DNA of 64,000 nt, from positions 62,001 to 126,000 of the forward strand of contig NZ_OBEJ01000003.1 in the NCBI RefSeq assembly GCF_900215575.1, read 5' to 3'. The notes under the pieces were generated by a model. That model had not been told where the DNA came from. It saw only the letters and a program-made list of their open reading frames with translations, and ran no database searches. The DNA is from Natronoarchaeum philippinense (lineage in GTDB: Archaea > Halobacteriota > Halobacteria > Halobacteriales > Natronoarchaeaceae). A program made the translations under genes and the position numbers. Below, piece after piece: positions 8,589-31,784 of this stretch. Positions within the stretch are counted from its first letter, which is position 1; each line of letters opens with the position of its first letter.

Positions 8589-9923
8589 CTACCGTCGCTC
8601 GGGCACCATCTCGACCGGCCCGTCCGGCCGCAGCGTGATCGACGGCCTGAAGCCGAGATTTGCGACGGCCGATTCGACCGTCCACTCCTGACAGATCGTC
8701 GCCAGCACCAGCCGCGCCTCCAGCATCGCAAACCGGTCGCCGATGCAGCGCCGCGGCCCGCCGCCGAAGGGGAAGTACGCGAACGCCGGCAGGTCCTCGC
8801 GGAACTCGTCGGTCCAGCGCTCCGGGCGGAACTGCTCGGGGTCGTCGTAGAACCGAGGATCGCGGTGGAGCACCCACTGCTGGAACGTGACGGTCCGGCC
8901 CTCGGGGATCCGGTAGCCCGCCATCTCGATGTCCTCGGTCGCCTCGCGGAGGAGGTCGTAGACGGGCGGGTAGACCCGCATCGTTTCCTCGATGACGCGC
9001 TCGGTGTAGGGCAGGTCGTCGAGATCCTCGACCGTCGGCGGCCGGCCGCCGAGCACGTCGTCGAGTTCGGCCTGCAGTCGGTCGCGTGTTCCGGGATTCT
9101 CCGAGAGCAGGTGCAGGGCGTAGGTCAGCGCCAGCGCGGTCGTCTCGTGGCCCGCGAGCAGGATCGTGATCACTTCGTCGCGGATGCGCTCGCGCGGCAG
9201 GTCGTCGTCGCTGGCCAGCAGGAGCGAGACGACATCGCTCGCGTCGCCGCCAGCCCGTTCGTGCTTCTCGATGATGCGCTCGGCCACGGCGTGCAAGTCG
9301 TCCAGCGCCGCGTTGAACCGCCGGTTTCCGGGCGTCGGCACCCACCGCGGCACGTCGACCGGCCGCCGGATCGACGACGAGGCCCGGTCCATCACCGTCT
9401 CTAACGCCTCTCCGATCGCTTCTTCCTGTGCCCGGATGTCCACATCGAACAGCGCCTGCGCGGCGATCTCGACGGTGAGGCTCATCATGTCCTCGTGGAT
9501 ATCTCGCTGCTCGCCGGGCGTCCAGTCGGCCAGCGCGCGCTCGGTCGCATCGGTCATCTCAGTCGCGTACGACGCCAGCATCTCGGGGTAAAAGGACGGC
9601 TCGACGGTGTGGCGCTGCGAGCGCCAGAGCTCGCCCTCGCTGGTCAGGAGACCGTCGCCCAGCACCGGTTTGAGCGTCTCCATAAACTGCTCGCCCTTGA
9701 CGAACGCGTCGTTGTCGTCGACGAGCACGCGCCGGACCAGTTCGGGATCGCTCACCTGCACGAACTGCTCGCCGCCGATCTCGTACGCCGCAACCGGGCC
9801 GTACTCGCGGGCCAGATCCTCGAAAAAGGCCAGCGGGTCCTGTACGTACTCACGGGTGTTGCCCAGTAGCGGGATGCCGTCGGGACCGGGCGGGGCGCCG
9901 CGGCCGGACGCGGAGCGTTGCAT
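8589..9923 (-). CDS. cytochrome P450 (canonical active site)
   Basis: 444 residues, soluble type with no membrane anchor. Key P450 signatures are all present: proline-rich start [13 protein letters not shown]-helix AGHETT (257-262) with the acid-alcohol pair, K-helix ExxR (E313-R316), the PERW motif and the haem ligand loop [10 protein letters not shown] (Cys393). It should activate O2 with electrons from a ferredoxin and reductase. The sequence resembles bacterial CYP102-domain/CYP4-like fatty-acid-type P450s, but the substrate is unknown. Monocistronic; upstream 140 bases contain only promoter-like sequence. Confidence 0.93.
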
Positions 9924-22374: not shown

Positions 22375-22626
22375 TCACTCCTCGTGGCTGTCCGTCTCTG
22401 CGTGGACTGTGTAGGTCCTCGCTTTCTCGTAGCGCTTGTAGAAGTAGACCATCGGCACCGGCACCAGCAGGAGCGTCAGGACGTAGCGCTCGTGCGCGTA
22501 GGTGTACCCCACCAGCGCGGTCGCCAGCAGGATCGACGCGTGCGCGTAGAGCCAGCCCCAGCGCGTCAGCGACTCCCAGTCACCGTACAGGTACTCGTAG
22601 AACACGCGCTCGATTGTCTCACGCAT
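22375..22626 (-). CDS. small two-helix membrane protein
   Basis: 83 residues starting MRETIERVFYEYLYGDWESL. Two membrane helices (about residues 25-45 and 48-63) are followed by a charged tail (KRYEKARTYTVHAETDSHEE). Not recognised beyond resemblance to uncharacterised haloarchaeal proteins. It sits on the same strand about 90 bases downstream of the polyprenyl synthase and may be the last gene of that transcript. Confidence 0.65.
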   Translation of the reverse strand: MRETIERVFYEYLYGDWESLTRWGWLYAHASILLATALVGYTYAHERYVLTLLLVPVPMVYFYKRYEKARTYTVHAETDSHEE

Positions 22627-22717
22627 GTGAACTCACGCGGACCTGCTGTCGCTGTCGGTTGTTGGGAGTCGGATCCCGCTGTTCGACGCCGCGGGTCGGC
22701 TCTCGATCTCCACCGCA

Positions 22718-23785
22718 CTACACCTCCCGCTCGACGGCGAACTCGGTGAACGCGGCCAGTTCGCGCGCGGCGTCGGCGTCGAGATCGACGGCGTCGAGAT
22801 GATCGAGTGCGCGATTTTTTAGTTCGCGGGCCCGCTGGCGAGCGTAGTCGATGCTCCCGGATTCGTCCAGAATGTCGATACACTCCTCGATTTCTCGGCG
22901 GTCGGTGTCCCCCGCGTCGAGAATCGCTTCCAGTCTCGCAACGTCTTCGGGGGGCGCGTGTTCGGCGGCGTGGATGACCAGCAACGTCTTCTTGCCTTCC
23001 CGGATGTCGTTGCCCGCCTCTTTGCCGAACCCCTCGACTGCCCCGCGCGTGCTCTCGATGTCGAGCACGTCGTCGCTGATCTGGAACGCCAGCGACAGGT
23101 CTCGTGCCCAGTTCGAGACGGCACGTTCGGCCGCCGGCGGCTGTTCGGTAAGGATCGCGGCGAGCCGGGCGGCGAGTCGGCCGAGGCTGCCCGTCTTGCA
23201 CGAACACATCTCCAGATACCGGGCTTCGTCGATCCGGATCTCCCGCTCGTTGTGCCAGTGGATGTCGAGGCTCTGGCCCAGATGCGCTCGGTTGAGCTCG
23301 TCGATGATCATCTCGTAGGCAGCCAGTCGAGTGTCGCCGTCCACGTCGCCGGGGTTCCGGCGCAGAATCGTCATCGGCAGGAAGTACAGGGCGTTGCCGG
23401 CGTTCAGCGCGATGTCGACTCCGTACTGCTCGTGGATCGCCGGTTCGCCGCGGCGCATCGACGCCCCGTCTTCGACGTCGTCGACGAGTAACGTTCCCGT
23501 GTGGAGCAGTTCCGGCACGGCGGCGTAGGGCGCGTACGGCTCGGGATCCGCTCTAAACCCTTCGACCAGCGTTCTGAACACCGTCGCGCGCCACCGCTTT
23601 CCGCCGCGGTCCAGTAGTTCCCAGACCGGGTCCGATAGCGATCGCTGGACGGCTTCCGTATCGTACTCGTACGTCGCCGCTCCGAACGTCTCTGCGAGGT
23701 ACTGCTCGTCGATCGTCGTCGGTAGGACGGCACCGATCGCCTCTGTGACACGCTCTTCTCCTGCCGTTCCCACGCCGTGGCTCAT
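22718..23785 (-). CDS. polyprenyl diphosphate synthase (trans-isoprenyl, GGPPS-like)
   Basis: 355 residues of the trans-prenyltransferase family, which adds isopentenyl diphosphate units to an allylic primer in the cytoplasm. GGKRWR (61-66), the first Asp-rich motif DDVED (102-106) with RRGEPAIHEQ, and the second Asp-rich motif DDVLD (238-242) are intact. The residue five positions before the first motif is Gly97 and the fourth is Thr98. Small residues there generally allow products longer than C20, so a C25 or longer product is possible (inference). The gene opens the terpenoid locus and is divergent to the membrane protein at 23922. A TATA-like CTATATT is close to the start (23795-23801), so a slightly later start is possible. 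Confidence 0.9.
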   Translation of the reverse strand: MSHGVGTAGEERVTEAIGAVLPTTIDEQYLAETFGAATYEYDTEAVQRSLSDPVWELLDRGGKRWRATVFRTLVEGFRADPEPYAPYAAVPELLHTGTLLVDDVEDGASMRRGEPAIHEQYGVDIALNAGNALYFLPMTILRRNPGDVDGDTRLAAYEMIIDELNRAHLGQSLDIHWHNEREIRIDEARYLEMCSCKTGSLGRLAARLAAILTEQPPAAERAVSNWARDLSLAFQISDDVLDIESTRGAVEGFGKEAGNDIREGKKTLLVIHAAEHAPPEDVARLEAILDAGDTDRREIEECIDILDESGSIDYARQRARELKNRALDHLDAVDLDADAARELAAFTEFAVEREV

Positions 23786-23921
23786 ATTTTCTTTCTATAT
23801 TCTCAGCAAGAAAGTGTTTCGATCCGTCGGCTCGGCGGACACCTGCGCATCTACATCTGTCTGTAAACCGCTTAAATTATAAGTTATCTACTCGGAATAT
23901 TCTTGCACGGTGTCCAAACCG

Positions 23922-24530
23922 ATGGTTACAGAAAACAGTTCTGCCGGCTCTCTCTCGGAGGTATCGCCACTCAAAGCACTCGACCTGATGACTCAGCCTC
24001 GCTTTCTTCTTCCGACGGCGTTTCCGTTCATCGTCTATCTCGGGTGGACGATGGACTCGTCGGCGTCGCTGTCGGCGCAGTTGCTCGCGGCGCTGGGCAT
24101 CGCACTCGGCGGGTGGTTCGGCGCGATGGCCGTGGAGTACCAGCCGTTCGTCCCGCTCGAAGACGGAACGATCAACGAGATTCAGGGCGGCCTGTTGTTC
24201 GTCGTCGCCGCGGTGATCTACGGCGTCTGGAGCTACAACGCTTGGCCGGCGGTCGTGCAAGGGTTCGGTCTCGTCTCCGGCGTCGCCGTGGCGCTGTGGC
24301 TCCCGGCGAGACGCGTCCTCAACCTCTCGGGTGGCGTCATCTTCCCGACGGCTCTGTTCGTGTTTCTGACGCTACAGGATCTCCGGCTCGCCCCGCTACT
24401 GGTGGTGCTTGCGATCCGCGTGCCCGTCGCGCTCACGATCGAAGATCTCTCGCCTCTCGAGACGACAGTCGGACTGACGCTGGGAAGCATCTCGGTGCTG
24501 ACCGTTCTCGCACTCACGCCGCTCGGGTGA
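23922..24530 (+). CDS. multi-pass membrane protein of the terpenoid locus, unknown function
   Basis: 202 residues from ATG 23922 (MVTENSSAGSL); a GTG at 23910 is an alternative start. About six membrane helices are predicted, with one conserved-looking polar loop (EYQPFVPLEDGTINEIQGG). No UbiA Asp-rich motif and no recognised family. An AT-rich TATA-like element (TTAAATTATAAG near 23872-23883) precedes it. It is placed between the polyprenyl synthase and the RND exporter, so a role in handling a hydrophobic intermediate is possible, but that rests only on context. Confidence 0.7.
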   Translation: MVTENSSAGSLSEVSPLKALDLMTQPRFLLPTAFPFIVYLGWTMDSSASLSAQLLAALGIALGGWFGAMAVEYQPFVPLEDGTINEIQGGLLFVVAAVIYGVWSYNAWPAVVQGFGLVSGVAVALWLPARRVLNLSGGVIFPTALFVFLTLQDLRLAPLLVVLAIRVPVALTIEDLSPLETTVGLTLGSISVLTVLALTPLG

Positions 24531-24813
24531 TCGACGCCGCGTTCGATTGCACCCGTACCGACTGTCTGCGTTCCTCGCGGAAGCTCGCCGCACGCATATT
24601 ATTTACTCACTTCAACTAATTATATTTGGAGAAGATACAACAGTTTTAACTCTTGTCTTGGAGATAGTTTCCTCCGATGATCGTTGTGACTGTGGCCGGT
24701 CCTCCCTGCCGCGCCTCCGCCTGCCGGCGGACCGATCGTCGCACTGAACCGCCCGCTCGAAACTCCTTCGTGGCTGTCCGTCGCCCTGACCCGGACGGGA
24801 CGGTGGCGGCCTG
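24531..24813. other. AT-rich intergenic region before the RND gene, with a possible 45-codon ORF
   Basis: No recognisable gene. TAATTATATTTGG around 24616-24628 looks like a promoter. A 45-codon frame (24677-24814, starting MIVVTVAGPPCRASACRRTD) ends in TGATG that overlaps the RND start, which would fit translational coupling, but its Arg/Pro/Cys-rich composition is not protein-like for this genome, so it is not called as a gene. Confidence 0.4.
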
Positions 24814-27438
24814 ATGTCGCGGATCGACCGCGTTACAGCGGCCGTTACGGAGCACAGTCGCGTACTCGTCCTCGCGCTGTTGCTCGTCACTGCCGCGCTG
24901 GCCCCGGGACTGGTCGGAATCGAGCAGGCCGGGGCGGTCTCGGGGCTCTCGGGCGATAGCGAGGCCGCCGAGGCCAACGCCGAGATCAGGGAACGATTCG
25001 ACGAACGGGACGTACCGTCGACGACGACCGTGATCGCAGTCCGCAACGAGGACGACAACGTCCTCTCGCGTGACTCGCTGTTGCGGACGCTGCGATACCA
25101 GCAAACGTTACACGACAATCGGACGGTCAACGCGACTCTCGTCGAGGACTCGCCCGTGGTCGGCATCGAAAATATCGTCGCCCGAGCCGCGATTCAGGCC
25201 GAGCGTCGGGGTACCGTCACGCAGACGGATCTTCAGGGCTGGAACGAGTCCGAGGGGCTGACCGCCGCGAACGGCTCCGACGACTGGCCTGACCCCACGA
25301 TCGACGACCAGATCGAGCAACTGGAGTCGATGAACGCGTCGGAGGTCTCCGCTGTCGTCGGGCGCATCCTCGACCCCGAGAGCTCCTCGGAAGCGACTCG
25401 CCGGGCGTACCAGTTGCTCCCCGAGAGCTACCGGGCCGGCGCGACCACGGCTGACGCCCGCATGATGGTGCTGACGCAGGCGACCGACGGGCAGGTCAGC
25501 TCGGCCGCGGGACTCTCAGGAGACATCTCCGAGGCGCTGGGCGTCGCTCGATCGCTGGCGACCGATCGAGCGGACGACGAGCGCTACTACTTCTACGGCG
25601 CCGGACTGGTGAACTACGAACAGGATACCGTCATTCAGGATAGCTTCGGCATCCTCGGTCCGTTGGCCGTGCTGTTCGTCCTCGTCGCGCTGTCGCTGGC
25701 CTACCGCGACCCGGTCGACGTGCTGCTCGGCGTCGTCGGCATCGCCGTGGCGCTGATCTGGACGATGGGAGCGATGGGCTGGCTCGGCATCATGTTCAAC
25801 CCGCTGATGATCGCCGCGCCGATCATCCTGATCGGCCTCTCGGTCGACTTCGCGCTCCACGTCACGATGCGCTACCGCGAGGTGCGCCACCGCTCGGACG
25901 CCGGCGTGCGCTCGGCGATGCGCGAAGCGCTCGCAGACCTCGGCCCCGCCCTCGCACTGATCACCGCGACGACGGTCATCGGCTTCCTGTCGAACTACAC
26001 CAGTCCGATGGCCGATCTCCGGACGTTCGGCCTCGTCACTGCAATCGGCATCACCGCGACGCTGGTCGTCTTCGGCGGGCTGATCCCCGCGCTCAAAGTC
26101 GAGATCACACCGCTACTCGCGCGCCGGGGCTGGGACCGGACGCCCTCGCTCCCGGGTACCGGTGGCCGGCTACGACGCCTGCTCGACACCGGCGCGACGA
26201 TCGCCACCCGCGCGCCGCTCGTCTTGCTGGTCGTGACTGGACTGTTCACCGGCGCCGCCGCCTACGGCGCGACCGGCCTCCAGATGTCCGCCCAGCAGGA
26301 CCTATTCATGGGCGACGATCCGCCGGAGTTCACCGAGAATCTCCCGGACGCCATCGAGCCGAGCGACTACTCGCTCAAAGAGGACCGCCAGTACATCTAC
26401 TCGACGTTCCAGTCGCCCGACCGGCAGGGGTACGTCTTCGTGACCGGAGACGTGACTACCCCGGAGACGCTCGAACGCGTCGCCGACGCCCACCACGCCG
26501 CGGTGGAGTCGGGAACGGTGTACGAAGCCCCGCGCGGCGGGCCGGCGATCCTCTCCCCGCTGTCGGAGATGCGTTCGGTCGCCCGGGAGAACCAGTCGTT
26601 CAACGCCACGTTCCAAGCCGCCGATAGCTCCGGGAACGGCGTCCCCGACCGGGATCTCGAATCGCTCTACGACGAGTTCCACGCCGCCGCGCCGGATCGC
26701 GCGGCCCGGACGCTCGACCGCGCCGACGACGGCAGCTACGCGGCCATGCAAGTTCGGATCAGCACGGACGGCAGCGTCGACCGGTCCGAAGCCGTCGCTG
26801 CGGTGTCGGATGCCGCTGCCGAGGTCGACGACAACGACGACTTGGAGGCCGTCGCCACCGGGAGCTTCGTCATCGAGCAACAGCTCAACGACCGGCTCTC
26901 GACGACGCTGATCGAGAGCCTGTCGCTGACGATCGTCGCCATTCTGCTGATCCTGATGGCCGTCTTCCGGCTGACGGCGGGATCGTTCTCACTCGGCGCG
27001 ATCACGCTCGTCCCGGTGATCCTCAGCGTCACGTGGTTGTTCGGCACGATGGCCACGCTCGGCATCCCCATCAGCCTCATCACGGCGATGGTCGGCAGCG
27101 TGACAGTGGGGATCGGCGTCGACTACGCCATCCACGTCAGCGAGCGCTACTGGCAGGAGCGGGCTGACGCCTCGCCGGCCGAGGCACTCGTCCGGACGGT
27201 CACTGGCAGTGGCAGCGCGCTGTTGAGCAGCGCCGTCACGACGGCGATCGGGTTCGGCGTCCTATCGTTCGCGCTGCTGCCCGCGCTCCGTCACTTTGGG
27301 TTCGTCCTCGCACTCGGCGTCGTCTACTCGTTCCTCGGCGCTCTGTACGTGCAGCCGAGCCTGCTGATGCTCTGGGATCGGTACGTTGCCGGCACCCACG
27401 ACGCGACGGCGTCGTCGATGCCCGTCGGGAACGACTGA
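24814..27438 (+). CDS. RND/MMPL-superfamily exporter
   Basis: 874 residues with the classic duplicated RND plan: an N-terminal helix, a large extracytoplasmic domain, a six-helix bundle, a second large domain and a second six-helix bundle. The membrane signatures GLSVDFALHVTMRY and GVGVDYAIHVSERY-like (observed: VGIGVDYAIHVSERY) carry the Asp used in proton relay in MMPL/HpnN-type transporters. MMPL and HpnN proteins move lipids, including hopanoids, out of the membrane using the proton gradient. Here it lies beside polyprenyl synthase, cyclase and P450 genes, which suggests export or membrane placement of an isoprenoid lipid. Convergent with the P450 gene. Confidence 0.92.
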   Translation: MSRIDRVTAAVTEHSRVLVLALLLVTAALAPGLVGIEQAGAVSGLSGDSEAAEANAEIRERFDERDVPSTTTVIAVRNEDDNVLSRDSLLRTLRYQQTLHDNRTVNATLVEDSPVVGIENIVARAAIQAERRGTVTQTDLQGWNESEGLTAANGSDDWPDPTIDDQIEQLESMNASEVSAVVGRILDPESSSEATRRAYQLLPESYRAGATTADARMMVLTQATDGQVSSAAGLSGDISEALGVARSLATDRADDERYYFYGAGLVNYEQDTVIQDSFGILGPLAVLFVLVALSLAYRDPVDVLLGVVGIAVALIWTMGAMGWLGIMFNPLMIAAPIILIGLSVDFALHVTMRYREVRHRSDAGVRSAMREALADLGPALALITATTVIGFLSNYTSPMADLRTFGLVTAIGITATLVVFGGLIPALKVEITPLLARRGWDRTPSLPGTGGRLRRLLDTGATIATRAPLVLLVVTGLFTGAAAYGATGLQMSAQQDLFMGDDPPEFTENLPDAIEPSDYSLKEDRQYIYSTFQSPDRQGYVFVTGDVTTPETLERVADAHHAAVESGTVYEAPRGGPAILSPLSEMRSVARENQSFNATFQAADSSGNGVPDRDLESLYDEFHAAAPDRAARTLDRADDGSYAAMQVRISTDGSVDRSEAVAAVSDAAAEVDDNDDLEAVATGSFVIEQQLNDRLSTTLIESLSLTIVAILLILMAVFRLTAGSFSLGAITLVPVILSVTWLFGTMATLGIPISLITAMVGSVTVGIGVDYAIHVSERYWQERADASPAEALVRTVTGSGSALLSSAVTTAIGFGVLSFALLPALRHFGFVLALGVVYSFLGALYVQPSLLMLWDRYVAGTHDATASSMPVGND

Positions 27439-27444
27439 TCTGCG

Positions 27445-27465
27445 GCGACGCCGTCGCGGCGTCGC
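27445..27465. terminator. hairpin between convergent RND and P450 genes
   Basis: GCGACGCC (27445-27452) pairs with GGCGTCGC (27458-27465) around a 5-base loop. It lies between the two stop codons at 27438 and 27511. There is no long T-run immediately after, so termination strength is uncertain. Confidence 0.4.
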
Positions 27466-27510
27466 TGTGCTGTCAGCGTTCGGACGACAAAAATAGGCGA
27501 CTCGTTCGAT

Positions 27511-28824
27511 CTACCGTCGAACGGTCGCGCGGTGTTTCGTCTTCGGGCGGAGCGTCATCGACGGCGTGAACTCGATCTCGCCGTCGACCTCGACGTCGAG
27601 GGTGACGTTGCCGACCATCTCGGCCAGCGCGATGATCATCTCCTGTCGAGCGACTTTCTTTCCGGGGCAGAACCGCGGCCCGCCGCTGAAGGGGAAGTAC
27701 GCGAACTGCGGCCTGTCGGCGTCGCGCTCCCACCGACCGGGATCGAACGCCTCGGGGTCGTCCCAGAACCGCTCGTCGCGCTGGGGCACCCACTGTGGCA
27801 TGATGAACTGCGTTCCCTCGGGGAACTCGTACCCGCCGATGGTGACCGGCTCCGTGGCCTCTCGATTGACGCCGACCGTCGGCGGGTATAGCCTGAGCGT
27901 CTCTGTGATCACGTTTCGCGTTTGGACCAGTTCGTCGATGTCTTCGGGATCGAGCCCGTCATCGCCGGCGACCGCCTCGTACTCGGCTTCGAGCGACCGG
28001 CGAACCGACGGATGCTCGTCCAGCAGGCGCCAAGCATGGGTGAGCGACCCGCCCGGCGACGAGGTGCCCGCGAGTAACAACCCGACCAGATTGTGCCTGA
28101 CTTCTTGCTCCGAGAGCACGCCCTTGTCGCTGGCCTCCAGCAGGAGCGAACACACGTCCTCGCCGGACTCGCCTTGGCGTCGCTTCTCGATGCACTCGCC
28201 GACGTAGTCGTTCAGCGCCCGCACCTTTTTCTCGAAGCGCCGGTCCGTCGGCGTCGGGATCCAGTCGGGGAGATATCGACCAAGGCGGCGGAAGTTCGCG
28301 CGATCGATGAGCGAATCCGAGGCGGCGATGATCACGTCCTCGTCGCCGCGCACGTCGATTCCGAGGAGCGTGTCGGCGAGCATCCGCATCGTCGAGACGC
28401 GCATCTCTTTGTGTAGGTCGAACTGCTCGCCGTCGTCCCAAGCGTCGATGGACGCGGTTACTTCCGCGATCATCCGCTCTCGATACGCTTCGACGGTGTC
28501 GCCGGTGAACGCCGGGTTGATCGCTCTCCGGCGTCGCTGCCAGTCGTCGCCGGTCGACATGTTCACCGCGTGGTCGGTGATCCCCTGAAAACTCGCGCGC
28601 TGGGCGGGGCCGATCGTGAACTGCCCGTGTTTTTTCACCAGTATCTCCTGTATCTGGGCCGGTCCGGTGACGAGATAGAACGATTGGCCGGGGTACTCCA
28701 ACCTGACGATGTCGTCCTGCTGTCCCCACTTTTCGATCGCGCTGATCGGGTCGCGCGCGTACTCGATCCCGTGGCCGAACACCGGTGTTCGTGCCGGCGT
28801 ATGGACTGATTTTGCATCCGACAT
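27511..28824 (-). CDS. cytochrome P450 with altered I-helix, terpenoid locus
   Basis: 437 residues. The K-helix ETLR (308-311) and haem-ligand loop FSGGPRFCPG (Cys386) are intact, so it should bind haem. The I-helix motif, AGxET in most P450s and intact in the other P450 of this window, reads AGTSSP (252-257): the acid and the threonine used for O2 proton delivery are both missing. P450s lacking this pair often rely on substrate groups, peroxide, or catalyse rearrangements. The N-terminus has no anchor. It sits between the RND exporter (convergent) and the class II cyclase (divergent), pointing to tailoring of a cyclic isoprenoid (inference). Leaderless promoter upstream. Confidence 0.92.
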   Translation of the reverse strand: MSDAKSVHTPARTPVFGHGIEYARDPISAIEKWGQQDDIVRLEYPGQSFYLVTGPAQIQEILVKKHGQFTIGPAQRASFQGITDHAVNMSTGDDWQRRRRAINPAFTGDTVEAYRERMIAEVTASIDAWDDGEQFDLHKEMRVSTMRMLADTLLGIDVRGDEDVIIAASDSLIDRANFRRLGRYLPDWIPTPTDRRFEKKVRALNDYVGECIEKRRQGESGEDVCSLLLEASDKGVLSEQEVRHNLVGLLLAGTSSPGGSLTHAWRLLDEHPSVRRSLEAEYEAVAGDDGLDPEDIDELVQTRNVITETLRLYPPTVGVNREATEPVTIGGYEFPEGTQFIMPQWVPQRDERFWDDPEAFDPGRWERDADRPQFAYFPFSGGPRFCPGKKVARQEMIIALAEMVGNVTLDVEVDGEIEFTPSMTLRPKTKHRATVRR

Positions 28825-28835
28825 GAGGTTTTATT

Positions 28836-28860
28836 TTGCTATTATTCTATTTAATCTTAT
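28836..28860 (-). promoter_or_regulatory. TATA-box promoter of the P450 gene
   Basis: Read on the minus strand, AAGATTAAATAGAATAAT gives a TTAAATAG box centred about 26 bases before ATG 28824, the spacing for a leaderless haloarchaeal transcript. The whole 28825-28870 stretch is AT-rich. Confidence 0.6.
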
Positions 28861-28983
28861 GATGGAGAATAAATAACTGGATGCTCAGATGCGGTCCCTT
28901 CAGCACTTCCAGCGTCTCTGGCACGACTGTGACTCCGGGCAGTTTCGATAGGTCTATTTGTTGCAGAGATATTTGCACGCATC

Positions 28984-30924
28984 ATGGACTGGAATCATGG
29001 CCGGAGATCGTTTCTCGGTAGCTTGACCGCCGCACCGTTCGTAACGACACCCGCGGCCGGACAACAGTCGGCGGTCGACGACGCCGTTCGGCAGGCCATC
29101 GAACGCTCCCGGTCGTATCTCCGCGACGCCGCGACCGACGGCGATTTTGCCCACTGGGATACGACGGTCGGCTACGGCGAGTACGGCGACCTGCGATACA
29201 CGGCCTACTACGCCCTCTTGCTGGAACGAGTCGGCGCGCGCGAGGCGATCAGGGACCGGTGTATCGGCCATCTGCTCGACCGCCGCTCCGCGGACGGCGG
29301 TTGGGGCGACGCCGTAACCAACTTCAGCGCGCTCTTGCTCTTCGAACTGATCGACGACGCCGACCACGCCGCTGTGATCGAGGACATCCAAGACGAAATC
29401 GACCGGCTGGGCCACTCGCTGCTTCCGTCCGACGACCGAGACGACGCCGGCGTGCGGGTGTCAGAGCGGTTCCGCGTCCGCCTCTGCTACGCGCTGTTGT
29501 CCGATCGCTACGCCTACGACGAGCTGTTCCCGGCCGACCGGCCGGTCGAAATCGGTCGCCTGCTGTCGCTGACCCCGGCGTTCGACGGGACGGCGATTTC
29601 GGCTCGGGAGAACATGAGCCGGCCCATCCACATCGGCCCGCTCTCGGCGTACTTCCTGCTCGGCGCCGCGGCGCGGGACGACCCGCTCGGGGAAGACGAG
29701 CAGGTGCTCGCAGACGCGTTCGAGAACGTGCTTCGGAGCCGCCGACTGCCCAACGGCGCTTGGAACACGTCGCCGACGACGATCTTCGGCGCTCTGGCCC
29801 TCGCCGAACGCGGATTCGATCTCTCGGACGACGAGGTCCGGCTTCCCGTCGATTGGCTCGCCGACAACCGCGTGACTGAGGCCGGACGCGTCGAGATCTG
29901 GCGTCTGCCCGTCTGGGACACCGGCCTCGTGATCGAGGCGCTGCTCGAATCGGGGCTGTCGCCGTCGGATCCCCTCCTTCGGGACGCAGCCCGGTGGCTC
30001 TACCGGGCGCGCACGCCGCAGGTGGACGTGAATCCGGTCGACGCCGAACTGGATCGCTCGCCCGCGCCGTTCCGGCGTCACCACGGCGACGGATGGGGCT
30101 ACATGCCACACGCCTTTTCGGACTGGGACGACACCGGCCTCGCCATCAGTGCGCTGTCGGCGTTCGCCGGTCCGGCGCTGGACGAACAGACGGCGTTCCT
30201 GCTCGACGTACAGAACCGGGATGGAAGCTGGTCGGCGTACACGACCGACTACGAGCCGTTCGACGACGCCGCTGCCGAGACGATCCGCTCGCGGGTCGGA
30301 GATGGGCTCTACCGAGTCTTTTTCGGGTACGTTCCCTCGCCCGACGTGACCGGCGGTGCGCTCGCCGCGCTCGGTAAACGCGGGCACACGGTTCGCGACA
30401 GCGAGGCGGTGCGTGATGCCGTCGATTATCTCACGGACGCCACCGCGGACAACGACCTGTGGCTCGGCGTCTGGGCGCAGGGGTTCACCTACGGGACGGC
30501 CCGCGTGCTCGGTGGCCTGCGACGCGTCGGCGTCGATCCGAGCCGGGAGTACGTCCAAGCGGCAGCCCAGTCGCTGATCGAGCAGCAAAACGACGACGGC
30601 GGCTGGGGAGAAGCCACCAGATACGACCCCGCCAGATCGACGCCGGGGAACGTTCCGTACCAGTCTGCCGACTCGACGCCGACCCAGACCGGCTGGGCGC
30701 TGCAGGCGTTGCTGTACGCCGGCATTTCGCCGGACAATCCCGCGATTCAGGACGGGATCGACTATCTGCTTCGGATGCAAGACTCGACCGGCGCGTGGAC
30801 GCCGGACCGCGTGATGTACAACTTCGGTGGCCCCGGCTACAGCACCGACGCGACCACGCAGGCGGCCGCGCTCGCGGCGCTTGGCTCGTACGCATCGGCT
30901 CGCGCGGCATCGACCGACGACTGA
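28984..30924 (+). CDS. squalene-hopene-cyclase-like class II terpene cyclase with Tat signal
   Basis: 646 residues, full SHC length. The N-terminus (GRRSFLGSLTAAPFVTTPAA, residues 6-25) is a twin-arginine export signal. SHC landmarks then appear in order: PVWDTGL (309-315), the protonating-acid motif DWDDT (380-384; canonical DxDDT), DGSWSAYTTDYEPFDD (413-428), WAQGFTYGTARVL (497-509), NDDGGWGE (536-543), STPTQTGWALQAL (564-576) and a last QW repeat with GAW and GGPGYS. These alpha-barrel cyclases protonate a terminal alkene or epoxide and cyclise linear isoprenoids at the membrane face. An intact acid triad suggests activity; the substrate (squalene, a longer polyprene or a prenylated acceptor) is unknown. 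The Tat signal would place catalysis outside the cytoplasm, unusual for the family. Confidence 0.92.
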   Translation: MDWNHGRRSFLGSLTAAPFVTTPAAGQQSAVDDAVRQAIERSRSYLRDAATDGDFAHWDTTVGYGEYGDLRYTAYYALLLERVGAREAIRDRCIGHLLDRRSADGGWGDAVTNFSALLLFELIDDADHAAVIEDIQDEIDRLGHSLLPSDDRDDAGVRVSERFRVRLCYALLSDRYAYDELFPADRPVEIGRLLSLTPAFDGTAISARENMSRPIHIGPLSAYFLLGAAARDDPLGEDEQVLADAFENVLRSRRLPNGAWNTSPTTIFGALALAERGFDLSDDEVRLPVDWLADNRVTEAGRVEIWRLPVWDTGLVIEALLESGLSPSDPLLRDAARWLYRARTPQVDVNPVDAELDRSPAPFRRHHGDGWGYMPHAFSDWDDTGLAISALSAFAGPALDEQTAFLLDVQNRDGSWSAYTTDYEPFDDAAAETIRSRVGDGLYRVFFGYVPSPDVTGGALAALGKRGHTVRDSEAVRDAVDYLTDATADNDLWLGVWAQGFTYGTARVLGGLRRVGVDPSREYVQAAAQSLIEQQNDDGGWGEATRYDPARSTPGNVPYQSADSTPTQTGWALQALLYAGISPDNPAIQDGIDYLLRMQDSTGAWTPDRVMYNFGGPGYSTDATTQAAALAALGSYASARAASTDD

Positions 30925-30971
30925 CCTCGTCACCGCCCTCGCCGGGACGTTCGTCTGCCCTCGGCGGTGGA

Positions 30972-31784
30972 CTATCCGGCGCTCACGTCGCCGCTTCTCG
31001 ACCGAAAATCCGTCTCCAGCGTCCCGTAGAACTGCAGCGACGCCAGATGAGCCAGCAGCAGCGCCACGACCAGTAGGCTCCCCGAGACGGCGGCGAGCAC
31101 GAGAGCGCCGAGCGCTTTCAGCGTGATGCCGAGGCGCTTCGTCGACCGCTTCCCGACGAGACAGGCGAGCGTCTGCTTGCCCGCCTCCCGGTCGCCTTCG
31201 ATGTCTTTCGCGTTTCGCATCTCCAGTCCCGCGAAGACGATCAGGAACCAGCAGCAAAACAGCACTGCGCCCTCTCGGCGTCCGAGCGGGTACGACGCGA
31301 TCCGACCGAAGATAAACACGATCTGGTACGCCCACGCGAACGCGACCGCACACGAGTCCAGCGGCACCGAGACCGTCTTGATCTCGTCGTAGAGAGCCAG
31401 TACGGCCAGCGGGACGTGGCCGAGTAAGACGGTCGCCAACCTGGCAGCGTCGACCGGCGGCGCCGCGACGAACAGCGAGAGCTCGAACAGGAGCAACGCC
31501 GCCGCCGCGGCGCCCAGCAACTCTCGCTCGTACGCTTCGACCAGCGCGGTCCTGTCGGGGTTGTTGATCCGGTCCTCGTCCGTAATGAGCAGCCGGTCGA
31601 CGATGTACACGAACGCGGTCAGCGCCCCCATCGTCACGAACCCCACGCCCGCCGCTGTCGGGGGCTCCCCCAGTGCGATGGCCGAAATAGCCAGAATGAG
31701 CGCCGAGTTGACGACTAGGTACAGGCTGCAACTGACGAACAGGTTGTAGCAGTCGTGCAGAAGCTGCCCGTTCCGGTTCAGCAT
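30972..31784 (-). CDS. divergent UbiA-superfamily prenyltransferase-like membrane protein
   Basis: 270 residues with seven to eight membrane helices. The second UbiA Asp-rich motif is clear: NAKDIEGDREAG (D194, D198), normally binding Mg-diphosphate. The first motif, usually NDxxDxxxD, is degenerate: VDRLLITDEDRINNPDR (D63, D69, D71). Family members transfer prenyl groups to aromatic or glycerol acceptors, and a few act as membrane terpene cyclases. Placed at the end of the terpenoid locus, convergent with the class II cyclase, it is a candidate to join the prenyl chain to an acceptor or carry out a first cyclisation. A GGTTATAAGC TATA-like element (minus strand, about 31855-31863) lies 75 bases upstream. 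Confidence 0.82.
   Translation of the reverse strand: MLNRNGQLLHDCYNLFVSCSLYLVVNSALILAISAIALGEPPTAAGVGFVTMGALTAFVYIVDRLLITDEDRINNPDRTALVEAYERELLGAAAAALLLFELSLFVAAPPVDAARLATVLLGHVPLAVLALYDEIKTVSVPLDSCAVAFAWAYQIVFIFGRIASYPLGRREGAVLFCCWFLIVFAGLEMRNAKDIEGDREAGKQTLACLVGKRSTKRLGITLKALGALVLAAVSGSLLVVALLLAHLASLQFYGTLETDFRSRSGDVSAG

Follow-up and report, generated by a model that had tools for sequence, protein, structure and literature searches.

Does a P450 whose I-helix has lost the acid of the canonical acid-alcohol pair still perform ordinary O2-driven hydroxylation? The question is raised by P0001, a P450 encoded in a 64,000-nt stretch of the Natronoarchaeum philippinense genome (the window), whose I-helix motif reads AGTSSP, whereas the second P450 of the window has AGHETT. 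A sequence-only reading of this DNA had claimed that the pair is missing while the haem-ligand Cys and the ExxR motif are intact, and that P450s of this kind often do not carry out ordinary O2-driven hydroxylation. The function of the pair has mostly been inferred from engineered mutants, and P0001 represents a natural acid-to-Ser change that is fixed in two genomes and marks a rare, apparently terpenoid, haloarchaeal gene cluster (Table 1).

Table 1. Features of the P450 locus and the comparison P450, in window coordinates
Feature	Position	Strand	Remarks
P0001, P450, 437 aa	27511..28824	(-)	Pfam p450 1.7e-64; AGTSSP 252-257, E308-x-x-R311, haem Cys386
AGTSSP codons (residues 252-257: GCG GGC ACC TCG TCG CCG)	28054..28071	(-)	Position computed from ORF coordinates
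Second P450 of the window, I-helix AGHETT	8589..9923	(-)	Comparison only; outside the cluster
Squalene-hopene-cyclase-like protein, 646 aa	28984..30924	(+)	SQHop_cyclase_C 6.4e-44; DWDDT 380-384; twin-Arg N terminus
UbiA-family prenyltransferase, 270 aa	30972..31784	(-)	Pfam 2e-13; 66% identical in G344 cluster
MMPL/RND transporter, 874 aa, distantly HpnN-like	24814..27438	(+)	66% identical in G344 cluster
Small membrane protein, 206 aa	23910..24530	(+)	No Pfam/NCBIfam match; 63% identical in G344 cluster
Polyprenyl synthetase, 355 aa	22718..23785	(-)	8.7e-60
Small hydrophobic protein, 83 aa	22375..22626	(-)	In G344 cluster too, 66% identity over 80 aa

The I-helix motif and fold of P0001

P0001 belongs to the P450 superfamily, with a Pfam p450 score of 218.7 bits against a cut-off of 22.8. 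The ORF translations bear out the two I-helix motifs as first read, as well as the integrity of the haem-binding elements: Cys386 lies in the loop FSGGPRFCPG, which fits FxxGxRxCxG, the ExxR motif is ETLR at residues 308-311, and W95 and R99 are also kept. The CPG of the haem loop was considered as an oddity and dropped, since it is common among other P450s. The two remaining P450s of the N. philippinense genome carry AGHDTT and AGHETT. A scan of genome contigs with the single P0001 protein gave two matches only, both at 26% identity. An Rfam search of the entire 64,000-nt window returned nothing.

To place the motif column by column, P0001 was aligned with 22 relatives of 43-79% identity (one of these rows, L067, is identical to another, L012). 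Against the canonical pattern (A/G)Gx(D/E)T(T/S), the acid column of P0001 (residue 255) holds Ser, and the alcohol column (residue 256) holds Ser in place of Thr, which is still an alcohol. AGTSSP recurs in a single relative, L006 of genome G344 (79% identity to P0001), with the others showing AGHESP (8), AGHDSP (3), AGHDSS (2), AGHDTT (2), AGHDTS (2), AGSDTS (3), and AGTDTS (1). The acid column is thus D/E in 21 of the 22 relatives, and it is likewise D/E in all 15 more distant rows serving as the outgroup of the same alignment and in all 42 further haloarchaeal background P450s, a nonrandom set composed of 40 proteins hand-picked from a similarity list plus 2 of this genome. Besides P0001 itself, 14 of the 22 relatives have Ser in the alcohol column, and 13 of these 14 retain the acid. 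Hence, of the pair claimed to be missing, the acid is indeed absent, but the alcohol is present as Ser256, in the form found in those 13 acid-keeping members. Two other haloarchaeal P450s (L103 and L105) have AGHEAT, with the acid kept and the alcohol lost, the mirror image of P0001.

The sequence-only reading had itself pointed to a pair at a shifted position as the outcome that would overturn it. The alignment reveals no such pair, there is no Asp or Glu at residues 243-268 of P0001, and the I-helix is single and unbroken (residues 239-270) in an AlphaFold2 model; we therefore reject a shifted pair. A class-wide search for P450s covered 391 genomes, with up to 4 candidates per genome scored. 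In the families f1, f4, f5, and f3 (9, 125, 170, and 146 genomes, respectively), with up to 10-13 candidates each, no further AGTSSP gene was found.

The AlphaFold2 model was built from a ten-sequence alignment (pLDDT 85.9, pTM 0.88) that took in eight of the nine P450-bearing related loci (L035, L036, and L121-L127), with L127 left out because of its short match; a single-sequence model (pLDDT 36.4) was useless. The model adopts the P450 fold, and its best match is CYP184A1 (7wzl; Z 44.4, rmsd 2.4 over 426 residues), with BM3, CYP175A1, CYP46A1, CYP97A3, and CYP170A1 following within about 2.3 Z in the fold comparison (Foldseek was also run); CYP97A3/C1 are also among its closest solved structures. 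To our knowledge, none of CYP184A1, CYP97A3/C1, CYP46A1, BM3, CYP175A1, and CYP170A1 is a peroxide-using or rearranging P450. Structures of CYP152, CYP74, CYP5, and CYP8 do not occur among the fold matches listed, which does not by itself exclude them. The model contains neither haem nor water, and a proton relay is not visible in it.

Origin of the motif and its gene cluster

The G344 homologue is identical to P0001 at residues 245-268 except for position 260, and it encodes AGTSSP with partly different codons. The presence of the same motif in a second, independent genome led us to reject a sequencing or frame artefact. Between the two proteins (79% identity), dN is 0.129 and dS 0.877, giving a dN/dS of about 0.15, and the cluster neighbors are less conserved between the same genomes (the cyclase at 65%, the UbiA, RND, and small membrane proteins at 63 to 66%; Table 1). 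With the P450 as the best-conserved protein of the cluster and dN far below dS, the gene is not decaying, and we reject a pseudogene. A separate relative at 52% identity, L013 of G273, has one in-frame TGA and may for that reason be a pseudogene.

In a maximum-likelihood tree of 37 proteins (L067 was omitted as identical to L012), P0001 and L006 are joined (100/100) on a stem of 0.47, within a clade whose motif ends in SP (99/97). Judged from this tree and the alignment, H254T and D/E255S are the novelties of the P0001 lineage, and Ser256 and Pro257 are its inheritance from AGHESP/AGHDSP-type relatives. The notion that AGTSSP as a whole is an ancestral feature of the subfamily is accordingly rejected for Ser255 and accepted for Ser256 and Pro257. 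Thirteen residues otherwise constant across the subfamily are altered in both P0001 and L006, and changes at otherwise conserved positions of the B-C region and the I-helix include E83T, T88N, R94D, L98R, H254T, and D/E255S. The same count is 0 to 3 in each of the other clades with at least two members and reaches 15 in L021, a single branch of length 0.40; given this other long branch, the 13 changes by themselves prove no functional shift.

In G344, counterparts of four window proteins (the cyclase, the UbiA protein, the RND transporter, and the small membrane protein) are lined up with the P450; the polyprenyl synthetase has no match within the 20-kb region there, and its homologues at L061 and L072 adjoin the cyclase. 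The regions around the other 21 P450 relatives (15, plus 3 including L078, which repeats a gene already seen, plus 3 smaller annotated regions) yielded no homologues of the cyclase, UbiA, RND, or small membrane proteins, only the P450 itself being matched. The AGTSSP proteins P0001 and L006 are thus the only two of the P450 set that adjoin the cluster genes. As they represent one evolutionary event, the link between motif and cluster may be coincidence. The cluster (22375-31784) shares 63-79% identity with its counterpart in L037, across two haloarchaeal families (f1 and f4), and is absent from most relatives, a distribution that suggests horizontal transfer. Two squalene/phytoene synthase-type genes elsewhere in the N. 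philippinense genome make polyprenoid substrates plausible for P0001. Judging by titles and abstracts, we found no literature on a haloarchaeal terpenoid gene cluster of this kind.

Homologues of the cyclase are rare, occurring in 5 of the 391 genomes of the class, and in 3 of 146, 2 of 170, and 1 of 28 genomes in three families that overlap these 391. They define seven distinct loci, in G000, G344, G065, G427, G298, G276 (= G459), and Halorussus caseinilyticus (NZ_CP119811). A P0001-type P450 stands beside the cyclase in G000 and G344 and at none of the other five loci, which indicates that the P450 is optional to the cluster; at G427, the contig ends within the cyclase gene, and a neighboring P450 could therefore be missed there. 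In H. caseinilyticus, genes for an MMPL transporter, a polyprenyl synthetase, and a UbiA protein accompany the cyclase gene. The G298 homologue (L057/L060) has one TAG inside the match, and the 20-kb region covered there gave no match to MMPL, UbiA, or polyprenyl synthetase.

The window's cyclase falls short of the squalene-hopene cyclase family proper, scoring 123.9 with the NCBIfam hopene_cyclase model against a cut-off of 431.1, and its DWDDT aligns with the DxDD catalytic acid motif of squalene-hopene cyclases (SHCs). DWDDT is a squalene-type acid motif, for which no epoxide is needed. The G065 cyclase (L059) has NWDDT, whereas the five cyclases aligned with it all have DWDDT. A twin-arginine N terminus is seen in the window (GRRSFL), in G344 (TRRTVL; L037:11124-13094), and in G065 (TRRRFL), and the homologues in L061 and L072, read by eye, begin with a hydrophobic stretch and end in a membrane anchor. 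The cyclase is apparently exported, and a class II cyclase acting outside the membrane would be unusual.

Proton delivery and rival accounts

The intact ligand loop, ExxR motif, W95, and R99, together with purifying selection, make P0001 almost certainly a working P450. We favor an account, whose chances we put as even, in which a functional haem-thiolate P450 was recruited once to the terpenoid cluster and is still O2-driven by way of a Ser/water relay. Its ancestor would have had AGH(E/D)SP, with an ordinary acid and Ser as the alcohol; on the single stem branch, entry of the gene into the cluster would have coincided with the changes of the acid to Ser and of His254 to Thr, after which purifying selection would have held the acid-free state. 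The soluble P450 would tailor a product or precursor of the cluster with its cyclase, UbiA protein, MMPL exporter, and polyprenyl synthase, and synteny points to a cluster terpenoid as its substrate. O2 and ferredoxin electrons would be retained, with Ser256 (and Thr254/Ser255) and ordered water replacing the Asp/Glu relay; proton delivery might be slower or leakier, yet suited to a large hydrophobic substrate. The motif, its place in the tree, the synteny, and the constraint are observed, and by analogy with its relatives and CYP51, P0001 is probably still O2-driven. CYP51s are O2 monooxygenases, and a CYP51-type P450 has His in the acid column, from which it follows that lack of the acid does not force loss of O2 hydroxylation. 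Two results in the literature count against this account. PMC9366932 gives aromatase D309N a coupling of 2.0%, versus 52.2% for the wild type, making the acid close to essential in that enzyme, and PMC12979805 describes DoxA Thr265Ser as highly detrimental.

Were acid loss instead to divert the cycle to Compound 0 or H2O2-derived chemistry, P0001 would be a prenyl double-bond epoxidase or a peroxygenase, which we think unlikely. The review PMC9112060 provides the precedent, in that an interrupted acid-alcohol relay blocks the passage from Compound 0 to Compound I and favors epoxidation, as in P450cam T252A; however, T252A removes the alcohol, whereas P0001 keeps it. The match of P0001 to NCBIfam CypC is 37 bits against a cut-off of 600 and spans residues 302-412 only, so that its likeness to CYP152 is negligible. 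The adjoining cyclase-like protein would take polyprenoid alkenes or epoxides as substrates, but with its squalene-type acid motif it has no need of the latter. An elaboration of this chemistry, in which an acid-free, alcohol-retaining lineage arose once upon recruitment, Compound 0 or peroxide oxidizes a polyprenoid (e.g., by epoxidation), the MMPL pump exports it, and the Tat-exported class II cyclase cyclizes it outside the membrane, appears improbable. Decidedly unlikely, too, is substrate-assisted proton delivery, in which the terpenoid itself, through a polar group or through water that it holds, would replace the acid, as proposed for P450eryF and P450cin. These two P450s and the peroxygenases are named as exceptions to the pair in PMC9366932. 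The changes at otherwise conserved B-C and I-helix positions in P0001 and L006 would suit such an adaptation. Against this, P450eryF keeps Glu without Thr, the reverse of P0001.

Loss of the acid would also fit an enzyme with no need to split O2, namely, an isomerase, dehydratase, or rearranging enzyme with the P450 fold (CYP74/CYP5/CYP8-like) that draws on oxygen already carried by its substrate, and the cluster may supply rearrangement-prone polyprenoids. Yet sequence and fold comparisons place other P450s nearest among the solved structures, with none from CYP74, CYP5, or CYP8 among the matches listed, and no hydroperoxide-forming enzyme is seen among the identified cluster genes, leaving this account very improbable. 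A decaying or noncatalytic P450 is the most doubtful of all: the 13 altered residues and the long stem speak for it, but these changes are no more than the branch length gives, as the L021 branch illustrates, and the low dN/dS, the standing of P0001 as the most conserved cluster protein, and the retained Cys, ExxR, W95, and R99 speak against it. The AGTSSP finding is real by all sequence comparisons made here and conserved in two genomes, with half of the claimed missing pair present after all. The further claim, that P450s without the pair often forgo ordinary O2 hydroxylation, is sustained insofar as the acid is absent, Ser is conserved in the one relative that is close, and losing the acid can have severe effects, as in aromatase; it is weakened by the retained alcohol and by the His-bearing CYP51-type enzyme, which shows that the step is not forced. 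Loss of the acid in P0001 is no proof of unusual chemistry, and the chemistry first proposed is possible.

Relation to known systems

Bacterial hopanoid loci, with SHC and HpnN, resemble the window in placing a cyclase-like protein near an MMPL/RND transporter. The window proteins, however, score well short of the NCBIfam cut-offs (123.9 of 431.1 for hopene cyclase and 109.2 of 751.85 for HpnN), the gene content differs, and the window cyclase is apparently exported.

As a rule, members of one P450 family share about 40% identity or more. P0001 is 31-35% identical to plasmid-record P450s that, taking the matched place to be the named gene, appear as CYP174A39, CYP1002B4, CYP1014C9, and CYP109G under CYP174, CYP1002, CYP1014, and CYP109 in Table 2 of PMC9962201. 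A literature search for an AGTSSP-like motif or for P450s without the conserved residue, judged by listings, found none, which is weak evidence of absence.

By fold or sequence, the best solved relatives are the Streptomyces enzymes CYP184A1 (7wzl; Z 44.4, E 4.6e-42) and CYP170A1 (3dbg/3el3; Z 42.2, E 9.9e-49). The latter acts in terpene metabolism, as proposed for P0001; unlike P0001, both have acid and alcohol (GHETT and GSETI, respectively), and their identity to it is only 27-29%. Among CYP51 sterol 14-demethylases, a solved CYP51-type P450 has AGQHTS, in which a nonacid, His, occupies the acid column adjacent to the alcohol, as the nonacid Ser does in P0001. It is a distant relative (E 4.5e-31) and, unlike P0001, keeps Thr; moreover, His can carry protons, and Ser hardly so. 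The pair is also broken or altered in P450cam T252A, P450cin, P450eryF, and the CYP152 peroxygenases, as in P0001, but elsewhere, either by loss of Thr or by lack of a pair coupled with an I-helix Arg, and we know of none of these with acid replaced by Ser and Ser kept as the alcohol. In CYP152 peroxygenases, an I-helix Arg-Pro replaces the pair; P0001 has no Arg at residues 246-265, and with its CypC score below the cut-off, it falls outside that family.

The haloarchaeal AGHESP/AGHDSP clade, some of whose members reside on plasmids (e.g., those of Halostella pelagica and Natrinema sp. SYSU A 869) and others in further genomes, is also close in design: at about 51-55% identity, it shares with P0001 the alcohol-column Ser followed by Pro and the intact haem loop. 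Unlike P0001, its members keep Asp/Glu and have no cyclase, UbiA, or MMPL neighbors. With the AGHESP relatives as ready controls, P0001 would offer a direct way of testing how oxygen is handled by a P450 that lacks the acid.
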